From Marinomonas lutimaris (GTDB taxonomy: Bacteria; Pseudomonadota; Gammaproteobacteria; Pseudomonadales; Marinomonadaceae): a stretch of 64,000 nucleotides of DNA. The notes below the pieces were generated by a model. The model was not told the origin of the DNA and searched no databases. It worked only from the letters and a program-made list of their open reading frames with translations. The position numbers and the translations under genes are program-made. Of this stretch, positions 1,709-51,156 are shown piece after piece. The first letter of the stretch is position 1, and the number at the start of each line of letters is the position of its first letter. The stretch spans positions 336 through 64,335 of the forward strand of contig NZ_JAHLLW010000016.1 of the NCBI RefSeq assembly GCF_019426345.1, given 5' to 3'.

Positions 1709-1736
1709 TCTTTCGTTTCTAGTATTGGTGTATCTC

Positions 1737-8790: not shown

Positions 8791-9398
8791 ACCCCTTGGA
8801 GCCACTATTAAACCGACGTTCATATTGTCGGAAAAAACTCACTTCCCCCGCCCCAAACGATCAAGAAATGAGGTCGCTTTTTAATCTGGTGATGACCACC
8901 CCCGATCATGGCAACTTAAAACCCTGGCGTTTTCTGGTGGTAAAAGAAGAGAACATGCCCAAGTTGGCCGAGGCAACGCTGGAAATGTATCGACAACAAT
9001 CCCCAGATGGAAAGGTGACGGAGAAGGCACGTCGTTCAGCAAAAGAGATTGCCGAGTCTCCCATGATGATCATAGCAATCAGCAATGTGAAACCAGAGCA
9101 TCATGTCTCACTCTGGGATCAGCAGCTATGTGGTGGTGCGGCGGTGCAGAATATCATGAATGGTCTACACCTGATGGGGTATGGCGCTTTCTGGTATACC
9201 TTTCTTGCGGGCAATGCGCTAAAGCCTATTCTTGGCATGAAGCCAGAAGATCAGGTTTTAGGGGCAATTGCGGTGGGGACGCCAATAGAACGTTTTAAAC
9301 GTCCGCTGAAACGTAAGGCTCCTGATGATTATTGTTTTGAATGGCAAGGTTTGGGAGAAGTTGCCACGTCTCTTTTCTCCGATAAAAAATCAGACTAA
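8787..9398 (+). CDS. Nitroreductase-family flavoprotein (YdjA-like)
   Basis: A 203-aa FMN-dependent nitroreductase-fold protein. An N-terminal RRSYCRKKL, a TPDHGNLKPWRF segment that lines the flavin pocket and a C-terminal MKPEDQVLGAIAVGTP are typical of the YdjA subgroup. It is the last gene of the exporter/importer operon, coupled by an ATGA overlap. In a siderophore locus a flavin reductase could release iron by reducing the imported ferric complex, or could modify the peptide. Neither role is shown by the sequence. The fold assignment is strong. Confidence 0.85.
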   Translation: MNPLEPLLNRRSYCRKKLTSPAPNDQEMRSLFNLVMTTPDHGNLKPWRFLVVKEENMPKLAEATLEMYRQQSPDGKVTEKARRSAKEIAESPMMIIAISNVKPEHHVSLWDQQLCGGAAVQNIMNGLHLMGYGAFWYTFLAGNALKPILGMKPEDQVLGAIAVGTPIERFKRPLKRKAPDDYCFEWQGLGEVATSLFSDKKSD

Positions 9399-10108
9399 TC
9401 CCGTTTATAGACAGCTTCAAGCGATGTGGCTAACGCCGTGAGAAATCTTTCTAGGTCTGGCTGAAAATAGAAATGATCGCCGGGCCAATTTATATGTTGA
9501 TAATCCTCACTATAGTGTTTCCATTCCTTTATATACTCAAGTTTGACTACAGGATCATCCGTGCCATGAATCGTGGTAATAGGGCAGGATAACGGCACTT
9601 TTTTTGAGATCTGATAATGCTCATTTAAGGCAAGATCTGCGCGAATAATGGGAAGAACCAGTTCCATTAATTCTGGATGATTCAGCACTTCCTGTTTTAG
9701 TCCGCCTATTTGCTTGAGTGCGACAATCAATTCTGAATCGCTTAAATGACTTTTCAATGAGGTTTCTTCCCGTTTATGGGGCGCATGGCTTGATGAGATA
9801 AAAATACTTTTAGGTGCCTTATAGGGACTTTGTTGAATTTTTAGCGCTAATTCGTAGGCAACAATACCGCCAAGGCTGTGACCAAAAAGATGGTAATCTT
9901 CGTTGTTTTTTAGTTCATCTTGCAGCTGGTGCATCATATCTTGTGCTAGTGCATCTATGCTTTTGGTTGGCGGGTCGTTAAAGCGTCGCCCTCGGGCAGG
10001 GTATTCTGGGCAGATAAGTGCGATGTTTTTTTGTTCAAAAAAGAGTTTCCATGGCGCGAAAAGGCTGGAGGAACTACCTGAAGAAGGAAAGCAAATAAGT
10101 GTTTTCAT
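9395..10108 (-). CDS. Type II thioesterase
   Basis: A 237-aa alpha/beta hydrolase of the stand-alone thioesterase class that frees mis-primed or stalled carrier domains of NRPS lines. The catalytic serine lies in GHSLGG, the aspartate in HGTDDPV and the histidine in GDHFYF. The N terminus MKTLICFPSSGSSSS is typical of the family, so I start at ATG 10108 rather than the TTG at 10138. It ends 4 bases into the stop region of the convergent nitroreductase. A strong hairpin separates it from the receptor gene upstream, so it may rely on read-through or a weak own promoter. It probably edits the three NRPSs. Confidence 0.9.
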   Translation of the reverse strand: MKTLICFPSSGSSSSLFAPWKLFFEQKNIALICPEYPARGRRFNDPPTKSIDALAQDMMHQLQDELKNNEDYHLFGHSLGGIVAYELALKIQQSPYKAPKSIFISSSHAPHKREETSLKSHLSDSELIVALKQIGGLKQEVLNHPELMELVLPIIRADLALNEHYQISKKVPLSCPITTIHGTDDPVVKLEYIKEWKHYSEDYQHINWPGDHFYFQPDLERFLTALATSLEAVYKRD

Positions 10109-10141
10109 AAGCAAAGATTTTTTGAAAGGAAGGTTCAATGA

Positions 10142-12503: not shown

Positions 12504-12628
12504 GTTGTTGCTCAATCCTATTTTTAATTGATAGCGTTTGTTTGAATGTTTTGTTAATGCAATTAAGGCATTGACATTAATTTACAATTAATAGCAAAAA
12601 AAAATATTTATGTAAATACTATTGCAAT

Positions 12629-12690: not shown

Positions 12691-13662
12691 ATGTCAATTA
12701 TCGTTCAAAACAAAATATTGACTGCTAGCGAAGGGGCTTGTGCAGTATTGCCGCACATTATTTCTCTAGGTGAAGGGAGGGGTTGGCGAGACTCAATCAC
12801 TATTATTCACCGCGAAGTTGAGAATCATTTATTAAAATCTGGTGGGTTGTTGTTTAGGGGGGGAGATCTTTTAGGGGAAGCTGAATTCCAGGAATTTGCC
12901 AAAACTTTTGGTTTTCCTCTTCTTGATTATGAATTTGGTTCTACTCCGCGTACTGATTTGGGAGAAGGGGTCTACACAACAACGGAATACCCAGCGCATC
13001 AGGTGATTCCGCTTCATAATGAACAAGCTTACACTCTCAACTGGCCAATGAAAATTTGGTTTCACTGCATTGAACCTGCGCACACAGAGGGGGAAACTCC
13101 TATTGCGGATAGCCGTAAAGTGTACCAGCGGATTCCAGTACGCATACGTGAACGCTTCGCAGAGAAAAAGCTGATGTATGTGCGCAATTACGGTAATGGT
13201 TTGGACTTGCCTTGGGAGAAAGTCTTTTCCACCGAAGACCCAAAACAGGTAGAAGTATTTTGTCGTCAGAATCAGATCGATTTTGAATGGAAAGGCGATG
13301 GTGAGTTAAGAACCCGCCAGATATGTCAATCTGTAGCACAGCACCCTATCACCCAAGAGTGGGTTTGGTTTAACCAAGCACACCTATTTCATGTTTCCAA
13401 TCTGGATGCTCATATCCGTGAAACTCTGTTATCCATCGTGGAGGAAGAAGACCTGCCACGTAATGTTTACTACGGCGATGGCACTCCCATTGAAGACAGT
13501 GTTTTGGATGAAATTCGCGGTGTGCTGGATTCGTGTATGGTCAAGTTCCCATGGCAAAAAGGGGACGTGCTGATGCTTGATAACATGTTGGTTGCCCATG
13601 CTCGTTCTCGATTTAGCGGCCCTAGAAAAGTAGTCGTTGCAATGGCTGAACCCAATAAATAG
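12691..13662 (+). CDS. SyrP/TauD-type Fe(II)/2-oxoglutarate dioxygenase, probable Asp beta-hydroxylase
   Basis: A 323-aa non-heme iron dioxygenase of the TauD/clavaminate-synthase-like superfamily. The iron triad is visible as H109-x-E111 (PLHNEQAY) and H303 (LVAHARSRF), with R312 placed to bind 2-oxoglutarate. An HxE instead of HxD pair is seen in clavaminate synthase and SyrP-like enzymes. SyrP-type proteins hydroxylate carrier-bound aspartate at the beta carbon, producing an iron-binding alpha-hydroxycarboxylate. The next gene starts with an Asp-activating module, and NRPS3 has a second one, so this enzyme is the natural candidate for making beta-hydroxyaspartate. Start ATG 12691 has AAAGGGG seven bases upstream. 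Substrate is inferred from the NRPS code. Confidence 0.85.
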   Translation: MSIIVQNKILTASEGACAVLPHIISLGEGRGWRDSITIIHREVENHLLKSGGLLFRGGDLLGEAEFQEFAKTFGFPLLDYEFGSTPRTDLGEGVYTTTEYPAHQVIPLHNEQAYTLNWPMKIWFHCIEPAHTEGETPIADSRKVYQRIPVRIRERFAEKKLMYVRNYGNGLDLPWEKVFSTEDPKQVEVFCRQNQIDFEWKGDGELRTRQICQSVAQHPITQEWVWFNQAHLFHVSNLDAHIRETLLSIVEEEDLPRNVYYGDGTPIEDSVLDEIRGVLDSCMVKFPWQKGDVLMLDNMLVAHARSRFSGPRKVVVAMAEPNK

Positions 13663-13802: not shown

Positions 13803-16800
13803 ATGGATATCACCTCTCCAAATCGGGGACATATTCTCGTTTCATCTAATCAATCTGCTCTTTGGTTCTTGTATAAACTGTCTTCTGAATCTTGTGCTTA
13901 TAATATGCATTTTGCCTGTGTGCTGGGGCGGGATAAAGGTCAATTGCTAGCGCTTGATCAGCTTGAAGAGAGTTTTTATCAAGCGGTTCATCTTCAGCAT
14001 ACGATGCGTACCGGTTATTTCCAGGAGGGGAGCGAAGTAAAAGCCAAGCTCTTTGAGGCAAGTTGTGCTGAGTTTATCTGTGAACGAAAAAAACTGACGG
14101 AGCAGGAGCATAAAAGCTGGGTGAACGGGTCGGCAGATCAGCCTTTTTGTCTGGAAAAGGGTTATGTCATCAGAGCCAATGTATGTATTGATCAAGACGT
14201 TTCCTATTTGGTGGTGACCGCACATCACATAGCAGGTGATTTCTATGCTATGGAGCGATTTATGCAGACCTGGGCTGAGTGTTATCAGCACTTGATGGGA
14301 GAAGGGGAGGCTCCACAGGTAAAGGAACAGTTTGCTGACTGGCTAGGACGTCAGGAGGACTGGCTGTCAAGCGAACAGGCGAGTAATACCATGCAGTTTT
14401 GGAAAGAAACCATTGGCTCTCTGCCAGAGAGTCTGCATGTTCCTGCGGACTTTGATCGCCCCAATGTCATTGGTTTTAACGGGGATCAGTATGTTTGCCA
14501 TGCCGATGCAGAACTCTCCGATGCTCTGTTGTATGCTGCGAAAGCCTTAAAAACAACTCCTTATGTTTTATTATTAAGTGCATTTCAATATTTCCTATAT
14601 CGCCTAAGTGATCAAAAACGCTTTCTGATTGGTTCGCCGACTTCTGGTAGACGTGGTCGACGGGACCGAGAGGTGGTGGGTTATTGTGCCAACCCAATTC
14701 CTGTTTTAGCGGATTTTAACGAAGACACCAGTTTTGCCGAGCTTATCCAAAAAAATGCGAATTTTTTCGCTCAGGCAAGACCTCATCAAAGGTTGCCTTT
14801 TGCCAAACTAAGTCAGGCATTGCTCAAAGATCGCAGCGCAGAGAAAAGCGGCCTGACCAGCCATATGATGACCTATACCCAAATGCATGACACGCATTTC
14901 GCTTCGCCAATTATTGGGGAAATGTTGCAGCTGGGACAGCGGGGAGCAGCTCATGAGTTACATCTTGGTGTGTTTAAAACCCAAGTAGGGAAACTGGATT
15001 TTATCTGGCGCTTTAATACCAGTTTGTATCGTGCGGACACCGTAGCGGCGATGGCGCAGGATTTTTTTGCCCTGCTGCATTGTTTATTAGCTGCTCCAAA
15101 TGAGAGGTTATCGATCCAAACCGCGTTACTCTGGCTCGATCGGGCATCAGTAGATACGCAAGCTAGTGAGATGTCTGACGCACCTTGCTCAGCACTTGCC
15201 CTCTGGCAAAAACGCTCAAATGACGAAATCGCACTCTTGCATGGTGATAAACGCATTCTTGTTGGAGAGGTTAATCAGACGGCAGAGTGTTTAATAGCGA
15301 GCCTTAAATCGCAGAAAGAGCGAATAGACAGCCCGATTGCCATCTTGTTACCCAGAGGGGAACGGCAAGTGGCTGCCATGCTAGCCGCTTGGAGACTGGG
15401 TGTACCCTATGTACCGCTGGATGATAAACAGCCTAGTACTCGTTTACAGCTTATGCTTCAGGAAGTGCTAGTCAGTGCGTGTATTGGTTTGGGTGAACGC
15501 CCGGATTTTTTGCCTGAAAACAGTCTTTGGCTGGATATGGGACAAGACATGTCTTCTGCAAGCCGCGTCTTGCCTTCTGTTTCTGGCGAACAGGAATCTG
15601 TAGATAAAAATGATACGGCATATCTGATTTTTACTTCTGGCTCAACCGGTACGCCCAAGGCCGTTTCCGTTTCCCAAGGGGCATTGGCCTCCTACGTGGA
15701 TGTGGTGAACGAGCGGCTTAATTTACCCGCAGGCAGTGTCTATGCGAGTCTTGCCAGCATTGCGACCGACCTCAGTTACACGGCATTATGGGGTGGATTA
15801 TTGGGTGGGTATCCAGTACGCATTCTGGATGAAGAATGGATGCTGGACGCAGAAGGTTTGGCGGATCACCTACAGACTCATTCTGTGGATATGTTGAAGG
15901 TTGTACCATCTCATCTACAGGGGTTACTAGCCTCGGAACGTCTGGAAATACTTCCCAAAAAAGCTCTGGTGTTGGGGGGAGAAGGAGTAACTCCTGAGCT
16001 GGTTAAAAAACTGCAACAACAGGCCCCAGAACTGGCTCTCTTTAACCACTACGGGCCAACTGAGACCACCGTGGGGGTAATAGCAGGCAAACTGGAAGCC
16101 GGGTCTCCCATTTCTTTGGGGACAGCGTTAGCGGGCAATCGACTCTATGTCTTGAGCAATGACATGCTGCCAACACCAGTGGGTGGCATCGGGCAGCTTT
16201 ATGTTGCGGGGCGTCAACTGGCTCAAGGGTATTGGCAGGACGAAGAGAAGACTGCGCATAGCTTCATTGATAACCCCTTTGCGTCAGGTGAAAAACTCTA
16301 TCGCACGGGAGACAGGGTAAGGCGTTTGCCAAACCAGCATCTGGCCTTTGTTGGTCGGGGTGATGGTCAGGTGAAAATCCGGGGTTACCGTGTGGAGCTG
16401 GCCGAGATCGAGCACAAACTTGCGCAATTGTCTGGTGTGATGGAATGTGCTGTGCATTTTGACAAAATCGAGCAGCGAGAATGCCTCGTGGCTTTTGTGG
16501 TTTCAACACAGCCAGTTAAGGACATTGAACAGGCTCTCGCACAAGTGCTACCTGCCTACATGATGCCACACTTCTGGCAGAATCTGGACGTTCTCCCACG
16601 TAACAGCAATGGCAAAATTGATCGTAAAACGCTGCGTGAACGCGCGAACCAGTACCTGTCTGAGCAAGAGAGAAAAGAAACAGAAAACCACGTCGGTTCA
16701 GAAACTCAAGACAATACTTTGGTTCAAGCACTACAGGCACTTTTTGCCAAGGTGCTACAGCTGGAGGAAAGTCGTGTGGATAAGGAAGCGGGCTTCTTTG

Positions 16801-19800
16801 CCCTTGGCGGCGATTCCATCCTTGCTTTGCAATTGGTGGCTGCGGCCAGAAAAGATGGCCTGTCGTTAACCCCACAGTTAATCTTTCAACATCAGACACC
16901 AGCGGCACTCGGTGCGTTTTTACAGACGCAAGCTCCTGCTAAAAAAGTCGCGCACTCTGGGACGGTTAGTGCTAAGGAAGATGCTCCAGCCAGCACGCCA
17001 AATGCGATGCGTCGCGCCAGTATGTTCTTGCCAGACAACCTAACATGCGGTGAGGTCCATGCCCCAGTAAGCCAGCAGGATCTGGAGCAGGTGTGTCGTT
17101 TGATTGCCCCAGACACCATTGAAGACATTCTGCCTCTCTCTCCCGGTCAACAAGGTATTTTTTACCATTGTCAACTGGATAACAATCCTAGGCTTTACAC
17201 CAATGTGACCACCTTGTCGCTCGAGGGCGAGTTAGAGGTATCTGCTTTCTTGCAAGCCTGGAAACAAGCGGGTTTGCGTCATGACATTTTGCGTAGTCAG
17301 TTTGTTTGGGAATCATTGGAGCAGCCTGTCATGGTGGTGTGTCGTGACCTTGCCATGCAAACCGATTTTCAGGACTGGCAAGCGTTCTCAGCGCAGATGC
17401 AAGAGGCCAGGTTGGCAGACTTTCTGGCAGAAGAAGAACGCAACGGCTTTGTAATCAGCCAAGCGCCTTTAATGCGCATTACTCTGATTCGTTTCTCTCA
17501 TGATGCGTGGCGCTTGATCTGGGTACGTCATCACCTGGTGGTGGATGGTTGGACATCATCACTGGTGGCGGGTGAAGCCATTGCGCTGTATCAGCAAAAG
17601 TCGTTGGCTCCTGCTCCCACACTGGCAGCCTACAGCACATGGTTACTCTCACAGGATGAAGACACCGCGCTGCGCTACTGGCAAGAGGCTCTAATGGGTG
17701 TTGAGGAAGCCACAATACTGAGTGACCACCAGATCAAATCGACTGGTGAAAATCAGCAAAACTACCATCAGGCACAACTGCCTATGGCGTTGAGCGAGCA
17801 GGTGCAGCACAGCGCACGCCAACATGATTTAACCGTCAACACGCTGGTGCAACTGGCGTGGGCTTTGACCTTGAATCGCTTTACTGGCCGCACCGATGTG
17901 GTTTTCGGCACAACCAGCTCCGGGCGCTCGGAGCTGGTGGATGCTATTCAGCAAACCGCTGGTATGTTTATGAATACCCTGCCGCAACGGGTCATACTCA
18001 AAGGGGAGCAAACCTTGGCAGAGCAGGCCAGAGCCTTGCAACTGAGTGCGGCAGAAGCACGACAGGCAGAGCATCTTTCTCTGGCGCAAATACAATCCTC
18101 CCTGTCTTTACCACCGGGCGAAGCCCTGTTTGATACAGTACTGGTGTACCAGAATTACCCCATTTCTTCGGCGCTGACACAGCTTGAAACACCGAAAATT
18201 CAGCTGCTTCATGTGGCGGAACACAGCAACCTGCCGCTCATGCTGCAAGTGGAACCGGGTGAGTCATTATGCCTGCATTGCCGTTACGACCGTCAGCGTA
18301 TTGCGGACAATACTGTCACAGCACTGCTTGTCACCTTTGAGCGGGCGCTGGAGGGTTTAACCCAGGGGCTTGATCAAACTGTTCACACTTTGCTTGGCAA
18401 ACTGGTTGAGCAGGAAAAAGCTTTGTCTATGGTGTCTGGTAAGTCACTGGATAGTTCGCAATATCAGGACCTGCTTACCCAAATCCAATATTGGGGACGC
18501 ACCACTCCGGATAAAAAAGCGCTGATAGTTGAGGATCGAAACTTCACTTACAAAGCATTGTGTGAGGCTATTAGTCAGCGTGCGCTCTATTTTACGGACA
18601 GATTAGGCAATGTGCCCGAGGCGGACAAAGTGGTTGCTGTGGCGCTGGCGCGGGATGCTCAACTGGTGATCAATCTTCTGGCTCTATACCAGGCTGGTAT
18701 TTCCTACATCCCGTTAGATCCAAGCCATCCCAAAGAACGGTTGGAAAGTATTCTGGAGCAAGCGAAGGTGGCCTTTATGTTGGTCACCGAGTCACTTTCT
18801 TTAGATGTCGAGGTGGAACAGGTCTCTCTTGCTCAACTGGAACAGGAAAACAGTGCTATTCAGAACGTTGGCGACCTCTTGCCAATCCTATCCGATTCGG
18901 CCATTGCCTATCGTATTTTTACTTCTGGCTCGACCGGGAAACCCAAAGGGGTAGAAGTATCCAGAGGTGCATTGAAACACTTTATGCACGTTATTGCGGA
19001 TGAAGTGCCTGTTTCTATAAACAGTCGCCTGTTGGCTGTGACCACTGTTGGCTTTGATATTGCCGCATTGGAGCTGATATTACCGCTGTTACAAGGTGGA
19101 ACACTGGTGCTGGCCAATGACGAAAACAGCAAGGATGGACAAGCTCTGGCGCAGTTAATAGACCAGCACCAGATCAATGTGATGCAAGCTACACCGGCAA
19201 CCTGGCATGGTCTGGTGGAATACGACGGCCCCTGGTGGCAGACACTGGATGTGCTGGTGGGAGGGGAAGCCTTACCTGTCACTTTGGCACGAACCTTACT
19301 TAACAAAGCCAACAGCCTCACTAATCTATACGGCCCGACCGAGGCCACTATCTGGGTGAGTTGTGAAAAGGTTACGCTTGCCTCGCTGGATAATCTGGAT
19401 GGCAACCATGTTGCATTGGGTCATCCGTTTGCCAACACCGCATTGTCTGTGCTCGATAACCTGGGCTATCCGGTGCGTCCTGGTGTAGAAGGGGAGCTGT
19501 ATATCGGCGGGTATGGGCTGGCGCAGGGCTATCTGAATCAGCCGGAACTGACAGCCGAGAAATTTGTCCCCGTGCCTTTTGCCAAAGAGGTTTTTTCTGC
19601 TCAATCCACAGATTTTGAATCCACAGGTCTTAAATCAATAGCACCTGATTTCCCAATTGGCGAAAAACTCTATCGCACCGGAGACCGTGTGCGGATGGAT
19701 CAGAATAAGGTAATCCATTACCTGGGGCGCATGGATTTTCAAGTCAAACTGCGCGGTTTTCGCATTGAACTGGGGGAAATTGACGCCCTGTTGCAACAAC

Positions 19801-20345
19801 ACCCAAGCGTTAGGGAAGCCGTTACCCTCATGTGGGATGAACAGCCAGACAAGGCCTTTATCGCAGCGTATGTGTCACTCATGTTTCCTCAAAAAGGGCA
19901 GGCAGAGGCAGATCTTATGGCCTATATGGGTGAACATTTGCCAGCTTACATGGTTCCGGCACACATTCAGATACTCGATAATCTACCACTGAATACCAAT
20001 GGCAAGATCAACCGCCGTGCATTGTCATGCCCGACACTTCTGGAAAGTACCCATTATGAGTGTCCTCAAACCGAGGTGGAACATACCTTGGCGGAGATCT
20101 GGCAGCAGATTCTGTCCGTCAAAGATCCCGGTGTGAGGGACAACTTTTTCCATTTGGGAGGCAATTCCCTGTCGGCTACGCGCCTTCAGGCCAGAATCCA
20201 GCGGGCGTTTCATATCAGCCTTTCGTTGGCAGACATCTTCCAGAACCCAACCATAAAAGCCTTGGCCGAGAAACTCGACGTGAACACTTCCCAAGAGGAT
20301 GATCTGGCGGCGATGGCAGCATTATTAGATGAGTTTGAACTATGA
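13803..20345 (+). CDS. NRPS1: C-A(Asp)-T-C-A(Gly)-T
   Basis: A 2180-aa two-module synthetase. C1 is at about residues 15-440 with HHIAGDF at 141-147. A1 spans about 445-965 with core TSGSTGTPK near 610. T1 has GGDS near 1001, C2 has HHLVVDGW near 1243, A2 has TSGSTGKPK near 1707 and T2 has GGNS near 2119. Aligning the pocket residues by eye to GrsA, A1 reads D-L-T-K-V-G-H-V-G, the aspartate pattern. A2 reads D-I-L-Q-L-G-L-I-W, a glycine pattern. The gene starts with a C domain although it looks like the first synthetase, so the Asp may receive an acyl cap or a residue supplied in trans. C2 resembles the D-accepting subtype at its start (PLSPGQQGIFYH), yet no epimerase precedes it. Its ATGA overlap with NRPS2 couples translation. 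No loading ligase was seen nearby. Confidence 0.93.
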   Translation: MDITSPNRGHILVSSNQSALWFLYKLSSESCAYNMHFACVLGRDKGQLLALDQLEESFYQAVHLQHTMRTGYFQEGSEVKAKLFEASCAEFICERKKLTEQEHKSWVNGSADQPFCLEKGYVIRANVCIDQDVSYLVVTAHHIAGDFYAMERFMQTWAECYQHLMGEGEAPQVKEQFADWLGRQEDWLSSEQASNTMQFWKETIGSLPESLHVPADFDRPNVIGFNGDQYVCHADAELSDALLYAAKALKTTPYVLLLSAFQYFLYRLSDQKRFLIGSPTSGRRGRRDREVVGYCANPIPVLADFNEDTSFAELIQKNANFFAQARPHQRLPFAKLSQALLKDRSAEKSGLTSHMMTYTQMHDTHFASPIIGEMLQLGQRGAAHELHLGVFKTQVGKLDFIWRFNTSLYRADTVAAMAQDFFALLHCLLAAPNERLSIQTALLWLDRASVDTQASEMSDAPCSALALWQKRSNDEIALLHGDKRILVGEVNQTAECLIASLKSQKERIDSPIAILLPRGERQVAAMLAAWRLGVPYVPLDDKQPSTRLQLMLQEVLVSACIGLGERPDFLPENSLWLDMGQDMSSASRVLPSVSGEQESVDKNDTAYLIFTSGSTGTPKAVSVSQGALASYVDVVNERLNLPAGSVYASLASIATDLSYTALWGGLLGGYPVRILDEEWMLDAEGLADHLQTHSVDMLKVVPSHLQGLLASERLEILPKKALVLGGEGVTPELVKKLQQQAPELALFNHYGPTETTVGVIAGKLEAGSPISLGTALAGNRLYVLSNDMLPTPVGGIGQLYVAGRQLAQGYWQDEEKTAHSFIDNPFASGEKLYRTGDRVRRLPNQHLAFVGRGDGQVKIRGYRVELAEIEHKLAQLSGVMECAVHFDKIEQRECLVAFVVSTQPVKDIEQALAQVLPAYMMPHFWQNLDVLPRNSNGKIDRKTLRERANQYLSEQERKETENHVGSETQDNTLVQALQALFAKVLQLEESRVDKEAGFFALGGDSILALQLVAAARKDGLSLTPQLIFQHQTPAALGAFLQTQAPAKKVAHSGTVSAKEDAPASTPNAMRRASMFLPDNLTCGEVHAPVSQQDLEQVCRLIAPDTIEDILPLSPGQQGIFYHCQLDNNPRLYTNVTTLSLEGELEVSAFLQAWKQAGLRHDILRSQFVWESLEQPVMVVCRDLAMQTDFQDWQAFSAQMQEARLADFLAEEERNGFVISQAPLMRITLIRFSHDAWRLIWVRHHLVVDGWTSSLVAGEAIALYQQKSLAPAPTLAAYSTWLLSQDEDTALRYWQEALMGVEEATILSDHQIKSTGENQQNYHQAQLPMALSEQVQHSARQHDLTVNTLVQLAWALTLNRFTGRTDVVFGTTSSGRSELVDAIQQTAGMFMNTLPQRVILKGEQTLAEQARALQLSAAEARQAEHLSLAQIQSSLSLPPGEALFDTVLVYQNYPISSALTQLETPKIQLLHVAEHSNLPLMLQVEPGESLCLHCRYDRQRIADNTVTALLVTFERALEGLTQGLDQTVHTLLGKLVEQEKALSMVSGKSLDSSQYQDLLTQIQYWGRTTPDKKALIVEDRNFTYKALCEAISQRALYFTDRLGNVPEADKVVAVALARDAQLVINLLALYQAGISYIPLDPSHPKERLESILEQAKVAFMLVTESLSLDVEVEQVSLAQLEQENSAIQNVGDLLPILSDSAIAYRIFTSGSTGKPKGVEVSRGALKHFMHVIADEVPVSINSRLLAVTTVGFDIAALELILPLLQGGTLVLANDENSKDGQALAQLIDQHQINVMQATPATWHGLVEYDGPWWQTLDVLVGGEALPVTLARTLLNKANSLTNLYGPTEATIWVSCEKVTLASLDNLDGNHVALGHPFANTALSVLDNLGYPVRPGVEGELYIGGYGLAQGYLNQPELTAEKFVPVPFAKEVFSAQSTDFESTGLKSIAPDFPIGEKLYRTGDRVRMDQNKVIHYLGRMDFQVKLRGFRIELGEIDALLQQHPSVREAVTLMWDEQPDKAFIAAYVSLMFPQKGQAEADLMAYMGEHLPAYMVPAHIQILDNLPLNTNGKINRRALSCPTLLESTHYECPQTEVEHTLAEIWQQILSVKDPGVRDNFFHLGGNSLSATRLQARIQRAFHISLSLADIFQNPTIKALAEKLDVNTSQEDDLAAMAALLDEFEL

Positions 20346-23300
20346 GTAAGTCTGACGTGAAACAACAAAATAGCCAGGATGCCAAGCGTATTGCTGAGCG
20401 ATTGGCCGCATTACCAGCAGAGAAAAAAGCTCAATTTCGCGCGCTATTGGCGTCTAAAAATATCGATAGCTGGCAATTACCCATCGTTCCATTGCCACAA
20501 AAAGAGGGCGACAGAAAAGCGGTGCTTTCCAGCGCTCAACAACGGCTCTGGTTTATTGATCAATACGAAGAAAACAGCGCTTTATATAACCTAAGTGGCC
20601 GTCTGCAACTGACGGGGCGTTTTCACCTTGACGCCATGAAACAGGCCTTTGCTACTTTGCTAGAACGCCATGCTGTTTTACGCAGTACCTATCAGGTAGA
20701 TGAGCAGGGAGAAGCCTGGCAGCGACAAGAGCGGGATTATACTCTGCCTATGCAAATTGAGCTGAATGTGGTGGATATGGAACAAGCCTGTGGCCGGCTG
20801 ATTCGCCAGCCCTTTAAGCTGGATCAAGATTTACCGGTACGTATTGCCTTGTTAAGTGAAGGTGGAGAAGACTGCCGGGTCTGGCAATTGCTCTTTGTGA
20901 TCCACCATATTGCCTTTGATGCCTGGTCCGAAGCTCTGCTGATTCAGGAACTAACAGCGCTGTACGATCAGTTCGTGAAAGGTCAGATTGCTCTTGATAC
21001 GGAAAAACTGAAACAAGAAAAACAGTTGTCAGCAGCAACACTGCAATACGCGGATTACGCCGTTTGGCAACGGGAATGGTTGAGCAGTGTCCACGCCAGC
21101 TCACAACGGGCCTATTGGTGCTCGGTACTACAAGATGCATCGAAAAATACCGCCTTGCCGTTTGATTTTCCCTACCCGGATATGGCGGCAAGAACCTACG
21201 AGGGAGCGGAAGAAAGCCTGAGCCTAAGCCAAGATACGGTGCAGCGAGCGAAAGCCTTAGCCAATCGGGAAGGCACCACCTTGTACAATGTAATGCAGGC
21301 TGCGTTTGTGCTTTTGCTGAATCAACAAGGCTGCGGTCGGGATCTGTGCCTTGGTACTTCTGTTGCCAATCGTCAGCGCCCGGAGCTGGAAAACCTGCTG
21401 GGTTTTTTGGTAAATACTCTTGTATTACGCCATCAATTAGCGGACAAAATGGCGTTTCGTCAACTGCTCTCTAACGTGTCGTCGACCACTCGCTCGGCCT
21501 TTGAACATCAGGATTTCCCCTTCGATTTACTGTTGGATGAGCTGAACATTGAACGTGGGCAGGCCTGGAGCCCATTGTTTCAGGTGCTGTTTGTCTATCG
21601 CAATGTGCCACGCCAATCCTTGCAACTGACCGACTTAACCGTCGAGGTGGTGGATAAGGAACTGACTCAGGCCCGTTTTGATATGACAGTTCGTTTGAAT
21701 GAAACCGAACAAGACGATGGTCTACGGGTGGACCTGGAATACAGCACGGAACTCTTTCGCCGGGAAACCATTGTAACGCTACTGAATCAATATCATGACC
21801 TTCTAATTAAGGTTCTGGAAGCACCAGACCATGTGTGGCAATTGACAGAACGACAATTGACAGAATTGCCGTTGAGGGAGCAAGAACAACAAGAATCGAA
21901 CCAGGGGGCAACCCATTCAGATGAGAATCCTCAACAGGAAAGTACCGCTTTATACAGTGACGAGGTTATAGCTCTGGCGCAAAACATTGCCGCAGGTTAT
22001 CGGGAGTTATTGCGTAAAGACGTAAACCTGGAAGACAGCTTTTTCCAGCAAGGGGGTGATTCCATCCTTTGTTTGCAATTGGTTGCCCGTCTGAAAAAAG
22101 ACGGAATCAAGCTGACGCCTAAGCTGGTCTTTGCGAAACAAACACCCCTGAGCATTGCCCAGGAAATCATTGACAAGAAAGCGCCAGACACCGCTACTGT
22201 GAGCACTCAAGCGGCCGTTGCAGACAGGCAAACCGTGCCTCTTGCGCCAATACAACACTGGTTCTTCGAGCAGAAGCTGACACAGGTAGACCATTGGAAT
22301 CAGTCGGTGTTACTAAGCTACGAAGGCGAAATGGACAGTATTTACTTTGCCCAGGCGGTAAAACAGGTTTTTGCCTTGCACCCGCAATTGAATACCCGTT
22401 TTCAACACAAAACGTCGGATCAGGTAGTGCAAACGCTCACCACAGGGGAATGGGAGATAGCAACACATGCCATTGCCTACGCCGATTTACCTGCTTTGCT
22501 GGCACAGCAGCAGTCTTTATTTTCCCTAGTGGACAAAGCGCCTATTCGTGTGGATCTTATCGACTTTACTGACCAAAGCGACGGGCGCATTTTATTGAGT
22601 GCCCACCATCTGGTGGTCGATGGTGTTTCCTGGCGCGTGCTCATAGGTCAGCTTTGTCAGGCGTATTTTTCCCAGCTAGCCGGACAATCGACTGAGCTGT
22701 TGGCTCCATCGGCGTCTTACGGTCAATGGGTCGCGGAGTTAGGAGCCTGGTCTGAGGCAAAAAAACAGGCAGCTAAAACCTACTGGCAAGCACTAGCCGA
22801 CACAGACAAAAGCGAACAACAAGCGTGGGTGAGTCTACCCCTAGACCTCTCCAATGCTGACCTTTACCAGACGGCGAATCTTGACCAGCCCAATACACTG
22901 GCCGAAAGCGATTCCCTGGAGGTGCACCTGCCCCATGAGCTGACACAAACACTGACTACTCGTGCTTTAACAGCTTATAGCCTGAGGATTGACGATTTAC
23001 TGCTCGCCGCGTTAAATCATACCTTGTCTCGCTGGCGTGGGCACTCTGACATACTGGTGGAGATGGAAGGTCATGGCCGTCAGCATGACGTACTGGATTT
23101 ATCTCAGACTGTGGGCTGGTTTACCAGTCGTTACCCCGTGTTGCTGCATTGCCATTCATTGGCACAAACAGAAGATAGCCTGCGCTGCCTGATTCTGGAT
23201 ACTCAAGCCCAACTGAGACGAGTGCCGGATCAGGGGCAAGGCTATGGTGTAATGCGTTACCTGTTTGATGCTTTCCCGTCTCTGGCGACCCCTTCTATTG

Positions 23301-26300
23301 TATTTAACTACTTGGGACAACTGGATCGTGGATTAAGCTTACAAGACGTGAACGGTACGCGACTGTCTCTGGCAGATGAATCTGTCCCTCACCAACGCCA
23401 CGGCGATAACCGCCGCAAACAGTGGCTGGACATCAACGGGATGATCAAAAACGGCGAGCTGGTGCTGCGTTGGCAGTTTAATCGCAAGGTGCATTCTTCC
23501 AGGACAATACAGACACTGGCAGACCAGTTTATCGACATCTTAAGCATCCTGATCCATCATTGTGAGAAGGCTGAAAAATCAGTTTCTTTGGCGGACTACC
23601 CCTTAATTGCACAAAGTATTGTAAGCCAGCAAGCGCTGGAGAGAGTGCTCGACACGCTGCCAGTCTCCCTGGACGAGCTGGTGAACCTGTATCCGCTGAC
23701 GCCCACTCAACAGGGAATGCTGTACCACACACTGGCCGAGCCAGAAAAAGGTCTGTATTTGAACCAGAGCTTGATTGACTTTCATGGCACTCTGGATGAA
23801 AAAGCCCTGCAACAAGCCTGGCAAACATTGATGGATCGCCATGATGTGTTGCGTACTGGTTTTGTCTGGCAAGGGCTGGACTTGCCACTGCAATACGTTA
23901 GCAAGCAGGTCGCGCTGGATTGGCAGACGCTAACCTTACCCCATAATGCGTTACATGAAGAAAGCATCCAGACCCTGGCCGAAACGGAACGACAAACCGG
24001 GTTTGATGTACAAAAACCGGGATTAATGCGCTTTAAGCTGATTCGTATCCGCCCTGATTATCATTGCTTGATCTGGACGCGACACCACTTGATTGTGGAC
24101 GGCTGGTGTACCGGGCAAATGGTGAGGGCAGTGCGTATCGCCTATCAGGCTTTGGTACAAGGCAAAACCGAGCCGAATATCATACAGCCGTTGGCTGTAG
24201 GGGAGTTTTCCGACTTTGTTGCTTGGTTAAAGCAACAGGATCAGGCAGCGAACCTGAACTACTGGCAAGGAGTCTTTGCCAATGTTGACAAGGCAGAAAA
24301 AGGCCGCCTGCCCAAACCCATCAAAAGCGCCAGCGGGCATGTATCGGCAACAGGTGGTATCCGTCAATTCACTCAGACTTTGAACCCATTGGCAAGCGAT
24401 GCGTTGAAGCGTCTGGCAGCAGAGCACTCTTTAACCCTGAATGCCTTATGTCAGGCGGCCTGGGCACTGATTGTCAGTCGTTACACCAATAGTGATCAGG
24501 TCGTGCTGGGTATTACCAGCTCGGGCCGACCAGATACCTTGGATCATGCCGAGCGCATCATGGGCGTGATGATCACTACTTTTCCTCTGGTGGTAAACCT
24601 CGGTGACCGACAGCAATCCCTGTTGGTTCTGGCTCAGACATTGCAGACTCAACTGGCCGAGAGTCGCGAGCATGAACATGTGCCACTGGTAGAGATACAA
24701 AAAGTCGTTGGTGACAGCGAGGCCCTGTTTGACAACCTGCTGGTGTTTGAAAACTACCCAGGTGAGCAGCATGAAATGGGCGGTGATCTCCACTTTCGTC
24801 TTAAAGAAACACGTGAAACCAACAACTACCCACTGACGCTGGTGTTAGTGCCTCATACTAAGTTGAAGAATAGCCATTTAGACATTCGTCTTGCAGTGGA
24901 CACTCAGAAAATGGATCTGTCCGTGGCCTGCGATATGCAAAGGGCATTTGTGACCCTGCTGGAGCAGATTGCTCAAAATTCTCACCCGGAAAACAACCTA
25001 AGCTGTGCTCACCTGATACGCCATCTTGCAAGCGGTCAGGCACTTGATCAGGATAGTAAGAGCCCCTGGCATTGGAACCAAACCCAAAAAGACTACACAG
25101 TACCTGCCACGCTGGATACCTATCTGGCTCAGCAAGCGGAGAAAACACCGAATAACACAGCGCTTGTGTGTCCGGCTGCCACCGTTGAATCCTATTGGCA
25201 GACGGACGGGGATTTGCAGCTGTCTTATCAGGCATTACATGAGCGTGTCTCGCAATTGGCTGCGTACCTGCAAAGCGCCCACGATGTCCAAAAAGGCGAG
25301 CGTATTGCCTTGTGTTTGCACCGCTCCCCGGAGATGGTTATTGCCATGCTGGCCTGTGTGAAACTGGCCTGTGCTTATGTGCCGCTGGACCCGGATATGC
25401 CCGCCAAACGTCTGACGATGATTCTGAATAATGCTCAGCCCTGCCTGATTCTGGCCCAACAACATACCCGGACTTCGTTGCCAGAGAAGAACCACAGTAC
25501 TGTATTGTGTATGGAAGAGGTGATGGTAGCTTCTCAGTCCATGTCAGCAAAAGAAGCAGAAGGGCAGTTAACAGCCCTTAATGCGTCCCCTCAGGCGGAT
25601 GACATACTCTATGTACTCTATACCTCAGGCTCGACCGGACAACCCAAAGGTGTGGCGGTGCCCCACGCAGGTATTGTTAACCGCATTGCCTGGATGCAGG
25701 AGGCCTTTGGCCTGCAAGCGGAGGATGCGGTGCTACAAAAAACGCCTTATGGGTTTGATGTTTCCGTGTGGGAGTTTTTTTGGCCGCTGGTGACCGGAGC
25801 TTGTTTGGTGATGGCTGAGCCAAACGTCCATAAAGACAATCACCGATTGGTCGCGCTGGTACGGGAGTATGGCATCACCACCATGCATTTTGTTCCCGCT
25901 ATGTTGCATGGTTTTCTGGAACAGCCGCTTGCTGAATCTGGATTAATCAGGCCTGAATCAAAACCACTGGCGCTAAAACGTTTGGTTTGTAGTGGTGAAG
26001 CCCTGCCTTACCACGTACAACAGACCTGCTTTGAAAAACTGCCGAATGTGGCACTGCATAACCTATACGGCCCAACGGAGGCCTCCATCGATGTGACCTG
26101 GTGGGATTGTCAGGCCCAGAACATTGAGAACGAAGTGCCGATTGGTTACCCCATTGCCAACATGCAGACCTGGATTCTGGATAAGGATCTAAACCCGGTT
26201 CCTGTGGGTGTTGAAGGAGAACTTTATTTGGCTGGTGTGGGGTTGGCAGCAGGCTATCTGGGGCAGGAAGAACAGACACAGGAGGCCTTTATCCCCAATC

Positions 26301-27016
26301 CCTGGGCGCCCGCTAATGCTCGGATGGATGCGCAGTATGCCCGCTTATACCGGACACGAGATCTGGCGCGCTACCGTCCTGATGGGGCCATTGAATACCT
26401 GGGCCGGGCCGATTTTCAGGTCAAACTGCGCGGTTTGCGTATTGAACTTGGCGAGATCGAAGCGGTGATTGCCCAATACCCACCGGTAAAAGAAGTGATT
26501 GTACAACTGCGTCAGCGTGGTCAACAGCAGGCGTTGGTGGGTTACATCGTGGCAGATGCGGCCATTGAAATGGACACCTTAAGTGACTTTATGAAACACA
26601 GGCTACCGGCTTATATGGTGCCAGAGCACGTGGAAACACTCGCAGCCCTGCCTTTAACACCAAACGGCAAAGTGGATCGCAAGGCTCTGCCCGAACCCAT
26701 TTGGGATCAGGTGCCGTTTGAGGCTCCTGCCACCCCGACCGAAGAGGCGTTAGCCGAACTATGGCAAGCCCTGCTGGGAATCGATGCGGCTGGGCGCCGG
26801 GATAATTTCTTTGCCCTAGGCGGACATTCTCTGCTCCTGACCCGTTTGGTTAACCGGATTAATCAGCATTTTAACCTGAACCTTCGACTGGCTGAACTGA
26901 TGGCATTGTCAGACCTACAGGCATTGGCCGCCTATATCGATATGTGTTGCCAATCTTTCACCTCTGCGATCAACACCACAGACAGCGAAGAAGAAAGGGA
27001 GAGTTTTGAACTATGA
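20342..27016 (+). CDS. NRPS2: C-T-E-C-A(Ser)-T with an A-less first module
   Basis: A 2224-aa synthetase. C1 occupies about residues 58-515 with HHIAFDAWS near 188. It is followed directly by T1 (about 540-612, GGDS near 571) and an epimerase (PIQHWFFEQ near 640, HHLVVDGVSW near 755), with no adenylation domain between C1 and T1. Module 2 is C (YPLTPTQQGM; HHLIVDGW near 1248), A (TSGSTGQPK near 1761) and T (GGHS near 2160). The A pocket reads D-V-W-H-V-S-L-I-D, the serine pattern. The A7 core motif reads YRTRDL near 2003 instead of the usual YRTGDL. Either module 1 is loaded by an A domain acting in trans, or it is skipped. The frame is uninterrupted, so the missing domain is not a simple frameshift. 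Confidence 0.93.
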   Translation: MSKSDVKQQNSQDAKRIAERLAALPAEKKAQFRALLASKNIDSWQLPIVPLPQKEGDRKAVLSSAQQRLWFIDQYEENSALYNLSGRLQLTGRFHLDAMKQAFATLLERHAVLRSTYQVDEQGEAWQRQERDYTLPMQIELNVVDMEQACGRLIRQPFKLDQDLPVRIALLSEGGEDCRVWQLLFVIHHIAFDAWSEALLIQELTALYDQFVKGQIALDTEKLKQEKQLSAATLQYADYAVWQREWLSSVHASSQRAYWCSVLQDASKNTALPFDFPYPDMAARTYEGAEESLSLSQDTVQRAKALANREGTTLYNVMQAAFVLLLNQQGCGRDLCLGTSVANRQRPELENLLGFLVNTLVLRHQLADKMAFRQLLSNVSSTTRSAFEHQDFPFDLLLDELNIERGQAWSPLFQVLFVYRNVPRQSLQLTDLTVEVVDKELTQARFDMTVRLNETEQDDGLRVDLEYSTELFRRETIVTLLNQYHDLLIKVLEAPDHVWQLTERQLTELPLREQEQQESNQGATHSDENPQQESTALYSDEVIALAQNIAAGYRELLRKDVNLEDSFFQQGGDSILCLQLVARLKKDGIKLTPKLVFAKQTPLSIAQEIIDKKAPDTATVSTQAAVADRQTVPLAPIQHWFFEQKLTQVDHWNQSVLLSYEGEMDSIYFAQAVKQVFALHPQLNTRFQHKTSDQVVQTLTTGEWEIATHAIAYADLPALLAQQQSLFSLVDKAPIRVDLIDFTDQSDGRILLSAHHLVVDGVSWRVLIGQLCQAYFSQLAGQSTELLAPSASYGQWVAELGAWSEAKKQAAKTYWQALADTDKSEQQAWVSLPLDLSNADLYQTANLDQPNTLAESDSLEVHLPHELTQTLTTRALTAYSLRIDDLLLAALNHTLSRWRGHSDILVEMEGHGRQHDVLDLSQTVGWFTSRYPVLLHCHSLAQTEDSLRCLILDTQAQLRRVPDQGQGYGVMRYLFDAFPSLATPSIVFNYLGQLDRGLSLQDVNGTRLSLADESVPHQRHGDNRRKQWLDINGMIKNGELVLRWQFNRKVHSSRTIQTLADQFIDILSILIHHCEKAEKSVSLADYPLIAQSIVSQQALERVLDTLPVSLDELVNLYPLTPTQQGMLYHTLAEPEKGLYLNQSLIDFHGTLDEKALQQAWQTLMDRHDVLRTGFVWQGLDLPLQYVSKQVALDWQTLTLPHNALHEESIQTLAETERQTGFDVQKPGLMRFKLIRIRPDYHCLIWTRHHLIVDGWCTGQMVRAVRIAYQALVQGKTEPNIIQPLAVGEFSDFVAWLKQQDQAANLNYWQGVFANVDKAEKGRLPKPIKSASGHVSATGGIRQFTQTLNPLASDALKRLAAEHSLTLNALCQAAWALIVSRYTNSDQVVLGITSSGRPDTLDHAERIMGVMITTFPLVVNLGDRQQSLLVLAQTLQTQLAESREHEHVPLVEIQKVVGDSEALFDNLLVFENYPGEQHEMGGDLHFRLKETRETNNYPLTLVLVPHTKLKNSHLDIRLAVDTQKMDLSVACDMQRAFVTLLEQIAQNSHPENNLSCAHLIRHLASGQALDQDSKSPWHWNQTQKDYTVPATLDTYLAQQAEKTPNNTALVCPAATVESYWQTDGDLQLSYQALHERVSQLAAYLQSAHDVQKGERIALCLHRSPEMVIAMLACVKLACAYVPLDPDMPAKRLTMILNNAQPCLILAQQHTRTSLPEKNHSTVLCMEEVMVASQSMSAKEAEGQLTALNASPQADDILYVLYTSGSTGQPKGVAVPHAGIVNRIAWMQEAFGLQAEDAVLQKTPYGFDVSVWEFFWPLVTGACLVMAEPNVHKDNHRLVALVREYGITTMHFVPAMLHGFLEQPLAESGLIRPESKPLALKRLVCSGEALPYHVQQTCFEKLPNVALHNLYGPTEASIDVTWWDCQAQNIENEVPIGYPIANMQTWILDKDLNPVPVGVEGELYLAGVGLAAGYLGQEEQTQEAFIPNPWAPANARMDAQYARLYRTRDLARYRPDGAIEYLGRADFQVKLRGLRIELGEIEAVIAQYPPVKEVIVQLRQRGQQQALVGYIVADAAIEMDTLSDFMKHRLPAYMVPEHVETLAALPLTPNGKVDRKALPEPIWDQVPFEAPATPTEEALAELWQALLGIDAAGRRDNFFALGGHSLLLTRLVNRINQHFNLNLRLAELMALSDLQALAAYIDMCCQSFTSAINTTDSEEERESFEL

Positions 27017-30000
27017 ACATGACCGTCTTTTTAACGGAATTATTTCAACAGGGCATTCGAGTACGTCTAGAAGATGACAAACTGAAAGTGGATGCACCAA
27101 AGGGCGCGTTAACTCAGGACATCAAGGCGACCTTAAGCGCAAATAAATCGGCATTGATCGACTATCTGCGTTACCAGAATCGTCAGACGTCTCTGCCAGT
27201 ACTGGCGCGTGTCGACAGAGCACAAGCGCACTTTTCCTTATCCTCAGCCCAGGATCGCATGTGGTTTTTGCAGCGGTTTGAACAGGACAGCGGCGAATAC
27301 AATGTGAATGCATTGTTGGCTTTGACGCCTTTGACAGAGTCGAATAACTGCAACCATACCGTGCTTTTTAAACGCGTGTTTACAGCACTGATTGCCAAAC
27401 AGGAAGTTTTTCGCACGGCCTTTGTGGTCGGGGGCGATGGCCGACCACAAGCCAATTTATTACCCTCCGAACTGCTTCTCTCCCATTGGGATATTGCGGT
27501 AGAGGATTTTCGTGCCGACCCGAATGGGCAAAGACATTATGAGCAAGCGTTAAAGCGGGTCATGCAAACCCCCTTTAATTTGGCTGAGCCGCCCCTGTTT
27601 CGTCTAACCCACTTTCTCTTGCCAACGGGGGAGTCGCACCTTTTATTGACTTTCCATCACATTATTGTGGACCACTGGTCATTACAAAATTTGACACGGT
27701 TAATGGTAAAACAGGCCAATGATTTTCTGACGCAAACTACCTCAGACACCGGGTCAGAGAAGGAAACTTGCCAATACCTTGATTATGCCCACTGGCAGAA
27801 ACAACTTTTGGAAAGCGATATCTACGATACCTTGTTGACCTATTGGCGTAATACCTTGGAGGATGGCGAATACCGTCTGGAACTACCGCTTCGTACCTTG
27901 AAAAGTGCCAAAGTGCAGAGCAAGACAGCACCAGAACAAGAAGGCGATCGCTACCATTTTGCGCTGCATCAAGCCGACTATCAGCGCCTGAAACAGGTGT
28001 GTGAACAGCAGCGGGTGACACCCTACGTGGTATTGCTGGCAGCGTATCAATGGATGTTGCACCAGCGTACCGGACAACGGGACATTCGCGTTGTCACTCC
28101 GGTAACAGAGCGCCCCTTACCAGAGTTGGAAGGCATGTTGGGCTTATTCGTCAATACGCTGATTATCCGTGCCCAATGTGACCGTGATACAAGCGCGGCC
28201 TCGTGGCTGGACCGTGTTCATCAAGCCGTAATGGGAGCCCAGAGCCACAGTGCTATGCCATTTGAGAAACTGGTGGAAGAGCTTGTAACAACGCGGGATC
28301 AGGAGCACGAACCGCTGGCGCAAACCCTATTTAATTATCTGGAAGCGTCGGACGTGAAAGACATGAGGTTAGGGGATCTGAACGTCACCTCCCTGCCAGT
28401 GCCCGAGTTGGGAGCCAAGTTTGATTTGTCCTTGTTTGCGCTTAAGGAAAAAGACGGTATCTCTCTGTCGTTTCAGTACCGCACGGCCTGTTATCAAGCC
28501 GAAGACGTGGCACAACTGGTGGCATATTACCAAACGGCACTGTCTCAGTTACTCGGTGCACTGCAAGGGGAACCGGAGCGTTTGTTGCGCACCTTCCCGA
28601 TATTAAGCGAAGACGAATGGCAGCAATTGAGAGCCTGGAATCGTACAGAAAAAGTGGCCTTCCTGCCGCCGCAATTATCCCACGCCACATTGGGGGACGC
28701 CCTGTTGGCACAGGCACAAAAAACACCACAACAAAAGGCATTGGTGTTTACAACCCGCGAAGAGGGTAAAGTGGTTACTCATCACTGGGATTACCAAACC
28801 CTGGATCATCAGGTGAATAAACTGGCTCACTGGCTGTTAGAGCAGCCAGGGGTTGGCCCGGAAAGCCGCATTGCAATTTGTATGGAACGCAGCGTTCAAA
28901 TGGTAGTCAGCCTTTTGGCGACGGTCAAAGCTGGTTGTGCCTATGTACCGGTGGACCCGGAGCACCCAGAACAACGTTTGCAGTCTATTTTGGGACAGGC
29001 GAGCCCGGCCCTGATGCTCAGCCAACCCGAGTGGATGGACAAAGCGAGTGGGCTATGTGCGGACCTGCCCTGTTACGTGGTCGATAGCGCGTTCTCTTTA
29101 TGCGCCTCATTTAGTGATGAGGTGGTTTTGCCGGCAGTGGACCCTGAGCATTTGGCGTATATCCTGTTCACCTCAGGTTCAACTGGAAAACCCAAAGGGG
29201 TTGCCGTGCCTCATGTGGGGGTCATGAACCGCTTGCTCTGGATGCAAGATACTTATCCGCTGGATGCCAGCGATGTAGTGCTACAGAAAACCCCATACAG
29301 TTTTGATGTGTCCGTGTGGGAGTTTTTCTGGCCTTTAATGGTGGGAGCCACGTTAGTGGTGGCGGAACCTTCGGATCATAAAGATGCGGAAAAGCTGGCT
29401 CACCTGATTGAAGCGCATGGCGTGACTACGCTGCATTTTGTCCCCACCATGCTTCAAGCTTTTCTCGATGGGCGGGCTATTCAGAAGGAGCTGGCGATTT
29501 TAGAGAACAAGAGCACAGGGAATTGTTCTTCCATTCGGCGTGTCTTCACCAGCGGTGAGGCGTTACCCTTTGCCTTGAAAGAACGCTTCTTATCACATTT
29601 TACCTGCGAACTGCATAACCTCTACGGCCCGACAGAAGCCTCCATTGATGTGACCTACTGGGATTGTTCTACGCCTCTGGAAGGCTGTGTGCCCATTGGC
29701 TACCCCATTGCCAATATGCAGACCTGGATTCTCGATGATGACCTGAACCCGTTGCCTGTTGGTGTCGCAGGCGAGCTGTACCTGACAGGGCCGGGGCTGG
29801 CCAGAGGCTACTTTGGTCGGGACGACCTGACCGAGCAGGCCTTTATTGCCAACCCTTATGTGGCACAAATCAGCCCGACCCAAAACCCGCGTTGGTATGC
29901 GCGTTTATATCGCACAGGGGATCTGGCGCGCTATCGTTCAGATGGCAGCATCGAATATCTGGGACGTACCGATTTTCAAGTCAAACTGCGTGGCTTGCGC

Positions 30001-47280: not shown

Positions 47281-47286
47281 CTGTAG

Positions 47287-49724: not shown

Positions 49725-49816
49725 AAATAGACAAATACCATTAACTGACTAAATGACACATCTTCCTTGGCATCCCATTTGTTAATCTTATAGGTAGCAG
49801 ATTATTATTCTACTTT

Positions 49817-51112: not shown

Positions 51113-51156
51113 GTCTGAAGCTCCAATATTATTTTGTGCAAGCATAATATTAGAAA

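Follow-up and report, generated by a model that had tools for sequence, protein, structure and literature searches.

NRPS2, the second of three adjoining NRPS genes (NRPS1-NRPS2-NRPS3) in the window, as we call the whole 64,000-nucleotide stretch of Marinomonas lutimaris DNA analysed here, opens with a condensation (C), a carrier (T) and an epimerase (E) domain, with no adenylation (A) domain among them. This A-less C-T-E unit is real. The trees and profile scores of its domains indicate that it very likely descends from an Asp module, and we estimate a somewhat better than even chance (roughly 55%) that its carrier is charged with Asp today, in trans, by either of the two Asp A domains in the cluster, in which case the product would be a heptapeptide.

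NRPS2 (20342..27016, forward strand) encodes 2224 residues in one stop-free open frame with the order C-T-E-C-A(Ser)-T. Its first C domain (20516..21832, forward; Pfam PF00668, motif HHIAFDAWS at residue 188) ends at residue 497–499 and the carrier (21965..22180, forward; PF00550) begins at about residue 542–545, with FQQGGDSI at residue 568 and the serine codon of GGDSI at 22061–22063. The linker between them (21833..21964, forward) lies where relatives have an A domain and one carrier. The E domain follows (22226..23593, forward) with the motifs HHLVVDGVS, EGHGR, TVGWFT and NYLG all there (HHLVVDGVSW at residue 755), then a second C domain (23687..24985, forward), which clusters with other post-E C domains, and an A domain (25127..26260, forward) with the Ser code DVWHVSLID. 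Pfam finds three Condensation stretches, one AMP-binding stretch (residues 1596–1973) and two carriers in the protein; the sole domain in 21845–22231 is PP-binding, at 36.4 bits against a cut-off of 20.8, and 22232–23701 holds a Condensation-family domain. Domains of this family were assigned to E by motif (HH...D.VSW) and by profiles made from the window's own domains, and these profiles likewise read NRPS2 as C-T-E-C-A-T, although for the window itself they are not independent of the Pfam placing. Neither Pfam nor the window-derived profiles give an A-domain match between the first C domain and the carrier, and the gap of about 42–47 residues is too short for one, given the 378-residue AMP-binding core matched in the same protein. 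The carrier is thus preceded by a C domain with no intervening A domain, and its serine is intact. The initial annotation had read a C domain running straight into a carrier and an E domain, an intact frame, a retained carrier serine and HHLVVDGVSW motif, and six A domains in the cluster (two, one and three in NRPS1, NRPS2 and NRPS3), and the domain annotation it called for, with nothing resembling an A domain between the end of C (about residue 499) and the carrier, bears out each of these points; the interval it gave, 21850–22215, takes in the C-T linker and the carrier but misses the E domain, which runs to about 23593.

Could a sequencing or assembly artefact conceal an A domain at this junction? 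The genome is a draft of 66 contigs, which leaves some room for it, but the frame is intact, and 21700–22300 has no exact repeat of at least 14 nt elsewhere in the window or in seven further loci of this genome, so that repeat-driven collapse of the assembly is unlikely there. The same comparison returned four 13-mers and a few imperfect matches of 15–36 nt, mostly in conserved carrier and E motifs. We consider an artefact very improbable.

NRPS1 (13803..20345, forward) has the order C-A(Asp)-T[GGDSI]-C-A(Gly)-T and NRPS3 (27013..41217, forward) the order TubC_N-C-A(Ser)-T-E-C-A(Asp)-T-T-E-C-A(Gly)-T-TE; Pfam on frame-correct pieces and the window-derived profiles agree on the architectures of all three proteins. 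The nine-letter codes of the A domains were read by alignment to a Ser A domain of the window, and we take DLTK.GH.G to mean Asp, DVWH.SL.D Ser, DILQLG..W Gly, DIWEL Dab and DGE OH-Orn. The two candidates for charging in trans are therefore the Asp A domains of NRPS1 (15207..16235, forward; code DLTKVGHVG) and NRPS3 (33667..34686, forward; code DLTKIGHIG). The tistrellabactin table lists DLTKVGHVGK for beta-OH-Asp (PMC10391617). Just upstream of the NRPS genes, and thus beside their Asp modules, lies a stand-alone TauD-family dioxygenase (12691..13662, forward), a putative aspartyl beta-hydroxylase; no second PF02668 match turned up in the genome. Further upstream are a TonB-dependent siderophore receptor (10197..12515, reverse; TIGR01783, over the cut-off), an alpha/beta hydrolase that is probably a type II thioesterase (9395..10138, reverse; weak family matches, with a 37% relative adjoining the G010 cluster, described below) and a cyclic-peptide export ABC transporter (1725..3413, forward; TIGR01194). 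The motif GGDSI is found in the Asp carriers of NRPS1 and NRPS3 and in the A-less carrier, and by the rule that we used, taken from the tistrellabactin report, a GGDSI carrier adjoins hydroxylated Asp (PMC10391617); since the NRPS3 Ser carrier before E also has GGDSI, the motif is not specific to Asp. The Asp modules with the TauD enzyme, the receptor, the thioesterase-like gene and the exporter identify a putative beta-OH-Asp siderophore cluster, and the line probably builds an iron-scavenging peptide.

Several other features of the window may be described here. The tandem carriers of the NRPS3 Asp module (35266..35754, forward, at 35266–35466 and 35554–35754, both GGDSI) are 77% identical in protein (67% over a longer stretch) and 86% identical over 134 aligned bases. 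The NRPS1 Asp carrier (16725–16922) has GGDSI and no E domain behind it, and the next C domain, the second of NRPS1, falls beside the post-E C group; it could possibly be a dual C/E domain, or there may be another route to D-Asp. Between 3407 and 8790 lie a substrate-binding protein, two permeases and a double ATPase, resembling microcin C/oligopeptide importers, with best matches to YejB/YejF-type models below their cut-offs; being inside the cluster, they possibly serve uptake of the ferric peptide. At 46162–51805 an Imelysin-like gene (49817–51187) stands beside genes with no NCBIfam match, and 56004–58502 encodes a type I restriction subunit R of the EcoAI type, followed by more genes in the same direction.

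Searches with the C-T-E stretch and with the TauD enzyme as an anchor led to the relatives used for comparison. Among 56 relatives, five genomes (our own included) match the C-T-E stretch at E <= 1e-60, with 33–38% identity outside our own, and one of them is G010, later a key relative. Across 390 genomes of the order, where few candidates were scored per genome, no match at E <= 1e-90 appeared beyond our own genome; across the genome contigs, the search gave 77 loci at 27–39% identity. None of these direct searches brought up a close relative of the unit. The TauD enzyme matched at E <= 1e-50 in 24 of the 390 genomes of the order and in 4 of 48 of the genus, with our own genome in both sets. 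The NRPS neighbourhood was read for 20 of the 26 other TauD-positive genomes, that is, all except G067, G137, G158, G181, G315 and G331; 17 of the 20 neighbourhoods contain NRPS domains, with none within the fetched part of G399, G219 and G355, and the stretches of G370 and G177 are cut by contig ends. When the home-built profiles were run over 101 loci, they flagged a C-T pair lacking A in 16 ORFs in 16 loci, the window's own copy (L001) left out, all in unrelated NRPSs: eight in L004, L012, L023, L026, L043, L048, L053 and L091, and eight in Bacillus or Paenibacillus loci (L054, L056, L060, L061, L063, L066, L071, L084). These ORFs, two of which have T at the frame end, may be profile misses or split modules.

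Five clusters share one plan, three from the same genus (G010, G412, G416) and two from other families (G220, G345). Their first protein is C-A(Asp)-T-T-E, the second C-A(Dab)-T-C-A-T-C-A-T and the third C-A(Asp)-T-T-C-A(Gly)-T-C-TauD; the plan ends with a last Asp module, where a C domain was recognised in three of the five. The last A domain of the second protein bears a Gly code in two of them (G412, G416), whereas in G010, G220 and G345 its code is Gly-like (DMLQVGAVW or DMPQLGAVW). Every one of the five has three Asp modules, and in every one the module at the protein boundary of the NRPS2 type is Asp by code and stands behind a Gly or Gly-like code. The N-terminus and first C domain of NRPS2 align with the start of the G010 third protein (query 5–495, 35% identity), and the stretch before the C domain recurs by eye: SWQLPIVP in NRPS2 is SWQLPIVP in three relatives, SWQLPIVS in one and SWRLPIVP in one. 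The motif HHIAFDAWS of the A-less C domain corresponds to HHVAFDAWS in four and HHVAYDAWS in one, at an identity of at most 39% over the C domains. Compared with the third-protein Asp module of the relatives, NRPS2 is missing the Asp A domain and the first carrier. An extra adenylating gene precedes the first NRPS in G010, G412, G416 and G345 and is absent from the window and from G220. The third NRPS of all five carries a C-like domain fused to a second TauD domain, and these C-like domains form one starred nine-row clade with those of G240, G105, G166 and G408. In all, 12 modules bear tandem GGDSI carriers, and each of them has an Asp code (one in NRPS3 of the window, two each in G010, G412, G416, G220 and G345 and one in G350); the relatives concerned lie in loci L102–L110, L111–L114 and L123–L124.

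The trees place the A-less C domain with these boundary modules. Among 118 C domains of the clusters (those of more than 330 residues) its sister group consists of the five C domains standing first in the relatives' third proteins (SH-aLRT 99), and the grouping returns at 100/99 in a 55-row subset with bootstraps, from which the rows of G199, G153, G408, G177, G370 and G238, two long-branch rows, the post-E type group and the rows labelled TC_hOrn or TC_Thr were left out. It is also the only C domain among the 118 that is followed directly by a carrier. In the same subset the first C domain of NRPS1 pairs with the C domain opening the relatives' first protein (100/99). All 18 post-E C domains fall on one side of the 118-row tree; at its smallest this side comprises 35 rows, to which protein-opening C domains contribute another 10 and C domains behind a carrier another 7.

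The A-less carrier scores best with the profile of the second carrier of the relatives' third-protein Asp module (67.5 bits), ahead of the two carriers of their other tandem Asp module, in the first protein (59.5 and 59.1 bits), and of the first carrier of the third-protein module (42.3 bits). Gly carriers follow at 42.2, OH-Orn at 33.0, those of the last Asp module at 28.6 and Dab at 20.3 bits; these were the groups scored, without a Ser-carrier group, and we chose to count DMLQ and DMPQ codes as Gly here and in the trees. Since the Asp carrier of NRPS1 also fits the relatives' second carrier best (74.9 bits), this preference marks a carrier of the Asp type and not the A-less module alone. 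In the carrier tree, which was built from 78 columns and resolves the finer forks poorly, the A-less carrier falls inside a 17-row set (97) that otherwise consists of 16 Asp carriers, and it belongs to a seven-row group (SH-aLRT 89) in which the Asp carrier of NRPS1 also sits. The E domain of the A-less unit takes no resolved place in a tree of 31 rows, which speaks neither for Asp nor against it. A move of the missing A domain to NRPS1 was considered too, but the A tree does not show one: among 35 A domains (the Asp-code ones except those of G199, G153, G408 and G370, together with the remaining amino-acid A domains from the window and from G010) the NRPS1 Asp A domain lies outside both Asp groups of the relatives, in a 98/97 set.

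The C and carrier trees, the profile scores and the Asp module found at this boundary in all five relatives point to an ancestral Asp module. We infer that the A-less module probably derives from a beta-hydroxyaspartate module by loss of the A domain and the first carrier: the ancestor would have been C-A(Asp)-T-T, of which the C domain and the second carrier were kept. No intermediate between C-A(Asp)-T-T and the A-less unit was seen. An E domain now stands behind the A-less carrier, at a place where the relatives have none.

What does this carrier receive then? In the scheme that we favour, acyl-Asp-Gly from NRPS1 would be delivered to the first C domain of NRPS2, the Asp A domain of either NRPS1 or NRPS3 would load Asp onto the A-less carrier in trans and the C domain would join this Asp to the chain. 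The stand-alone TauD enzyme may hydroxylate Asp on this carrier, and the post-E type C domain would hand the chain onward; that the C domain behind E belongs with the post-E C domains fits passage of the chain through the A-less unit. The predicted backbone would be (acyl?)-Asp-Gly-Asp-Ser-Ser-Asp-Gly, a heptapeptide in which as many as three residues could be beta-OH-Asp; these would provide three bidentate ligands for Fe(III). A hexadentate ferric siderophore requires three bidentate ligands, and together with the three Asp modules of the relatives and the lack of a clear hydroxamate enzyme this requirement would make loading of Asp chemically sensible. Against the scheme it counts that the trees tell what the A-less module was and not what it is loaded with at present, and that the next-best carrier groups score just 8 bits lower, as do several points given above: the like preference of the NRPS1 Asp carrier, GGDSI on a Ser carrier, the E tree, the place of the NRPS1 Asp A domain and the C-domain identity of at most 39%.

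Of the 15 AMP-binding matches in the genome, this cluster accounts for six and the NRPSs of contig C66 for three, which leaves six others. Five of the six others score 53–164 bits with TIGR01733, against a cut-off of 317.4, and for the sixth, which is FadD-like, TIGR01733 is not among the best 25 families, the 25th scoring 229 bits. All six resemble acyl-CoA or aryl ligases, though the 517- and 566-residue ones fit no named family well; the test was the best family match, and the DHB ligase entered the scan as a fragment truncated at the end of its locus. Among the 15 matches genome-wide we thus recognised no stand-alone amino-acid A domain or A-T protein, which makes the A domain of a module the most likely source of charging in trans and, together with the domain trees, points to one of the cluster's own A domains, probably an Asp one. 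The initial annotation had posed charging in trans or skipping without naming an amino acid; the alternatives were well chosen, and what is added here is Asp and the lack of a recognised free-standing A domain. As for hydroxamates, apart from one partial flavoprotein match no clear enzyme was found in the genome: the Lys/Orn-oxygenase family matches a 717-residue ORF at 29.8 bits (cut-off 21.3) over profile positions 132–244 of 339, and the same family matches 12 of 14 control genomes. Contig C66 (L093, L094) encodes a 2,3-DHB-AMP ligase, an EntF-like protein with a Gly code and a 2463-residue NRPS with one Ser code, probably a catecholate siderophore locus. Given this locus and the partial oxygenase match, a catechol cap or another third ligand is possible.

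Module skipping is known in other NRPSs, and here the A-less module, having no A domain of its own, might be bypassed, with the chain going from the Gly carrier of NRPS1 past it to give a hexapeptide with at most two beta-OH-Asp. The protein termini could allow this: given the tails of NRPS1 (-LLDEFEL) and NRPS2 (-ERESFEL) and the TubC_N docking domain of NRPS3, NRPS1 might dock NRPS3. However, in the relatives the second proteins have similar C-terminal tails (LLSEFED twice, LLNEIEG, LLNELEG, LLAEMED), and the protein that comes next starts with an N-terminus of the NRPS2 type, which favours docking of NRPS1 to NRPS2, and the C, T and E motifs are intact in an open frame of 2224 codons, with a next C domain of the post-E type. 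Skipping is on balance unlikely. Slightly less likely again is charging in trans with another cargo, either Ser supplied by the Ser A domain of NRPS2 or of NRPS3, or Gly supplied by the preceding A domain. In its favour, NRPS2 itself contains a Ser A domain, and in tistrellabactin the extra residue is Gln, as in the module before it (PMC10391617); but by profile the A-less carrier goes with Asp carriers and scores much lower with the relatives' Gly carriers (67.5 against 42.2 bits), its C domain appears to descend from an Asp module, and with Gly the E domain would be pointless.

The E domain itself had been taken to imply that an amino acid arrives on the carrier. Its motifs are indeed intact, but the argument is weaker than it was made: in the bokeelamide cluster, an Asp module has an E domain and yet its beta-OH-Asp is L-erythro, TauD with E being usually expected to give D-threo, with exceptions according to the authors (PMC11574851). 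The E domain in the A-less unit is thus no proof of a D residue. The same precedent, in which E of a TauD-linked Asp module may be present with no D residue, would suit a unit that receives the chain and adds nothing, serving as a platform for the E domain or a hydroxylase, as would the proposal of the tistrellabactin authors that MobG epimerises residues together with the neighbouring module (PMC10391617). But judged by its code the residue before this unit is Gly, which is not open to epimerisation, and the unit owns a C domain with an intact motif, so that such a platform seems quite improbable. Loading with Asp in trans is the reading that we favour.

Prediction of structure from the NRPS genes by counting A domains alone would yield six residues; the A-less unit instead leads to a concrete prediction of Asp, a third beta-OH-Asp and seven residues. 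Its apparent complete form survives in five related lines, where a lost A domain can be studied beside its probable state before the loss. Many Asp modules in these TauD-linked lines bear two carriers, and we would advance, as a rather doubtful idea, that the second carrier of an Asp module can be charged without its own A domain and that here a lone second carrier, served in trans, supplies the third beta-hydroxyaspartate of a hexadentate siderophore. If true, denticity, and hence iron affinity, would depend on A domains being shared among proteins, and the relatives' tandem carriers would represent a stepping stone on the way to a dispensable A domain.

A-less NRPS modules are already known as a kind, with module 9 of SyrE, module 2 of RthA, CmnI and MobG as examples. 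In capreomycin biosynthesis CmnI, like the unit described here, has no A domain of its own, and the A domain of another module loads a second carrier, CmnA-A1 serving the CmnI carrier in trans as seen by intact-protein mass spectrometry (PMC12400406). CmnI is, however, a separate T-C protein for which loading was measured, whereas here C-T-E opens a larger protein of a putative siderophore line and loading is inferred. Module 9 of SyrE in syringomycin is also C-T without A and is charged in trans, in that case by the stand-alone A-T protein SyrB1 and a shuttle enzyme, and no such A-T protein was recognised here (PMC8949500). Likewise, module 2 of RthA in rotihibin is an A-less C-T inside an NRPS, for which the proposed server is the A-T protein RthB with a shuttle resembling type II thioesterases (PMC8552735); our cluster has a thioesterase-like gene and no recognised A-T protein. 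The clusters for bokeelamides (PMC11574851) and potashchelins (PMC7100376) share with ours the TauD enzyme and Asp A domains, and in bokeelamides an E domain in an Asp module, while the accessible sections of both papers do not mention an A-less unit. Closest in setting is tistrellabactin MobG, with a beta-OH-Asp siderophore, an A-less unit and an extra residue: the line of MobF and MobG likewise makes a siderophore and includes an aspartyl beta-hydroxylase of the TauD type, a C domain closes MobF and MobG has neither C nor A, and the product is an octapeptide although the prediction was seven residues, by a mechanism that the authors call unknown (PMC10391617). There the extra residue is Gln and a sequencing error at the gap is conceded to be possible, whereas our unit follows a Gly module and probably has an Asp module as its parent. 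What sets our unit apart is the reconstructed parentage, since a fairly clear origin makes the identity of the residue testable.
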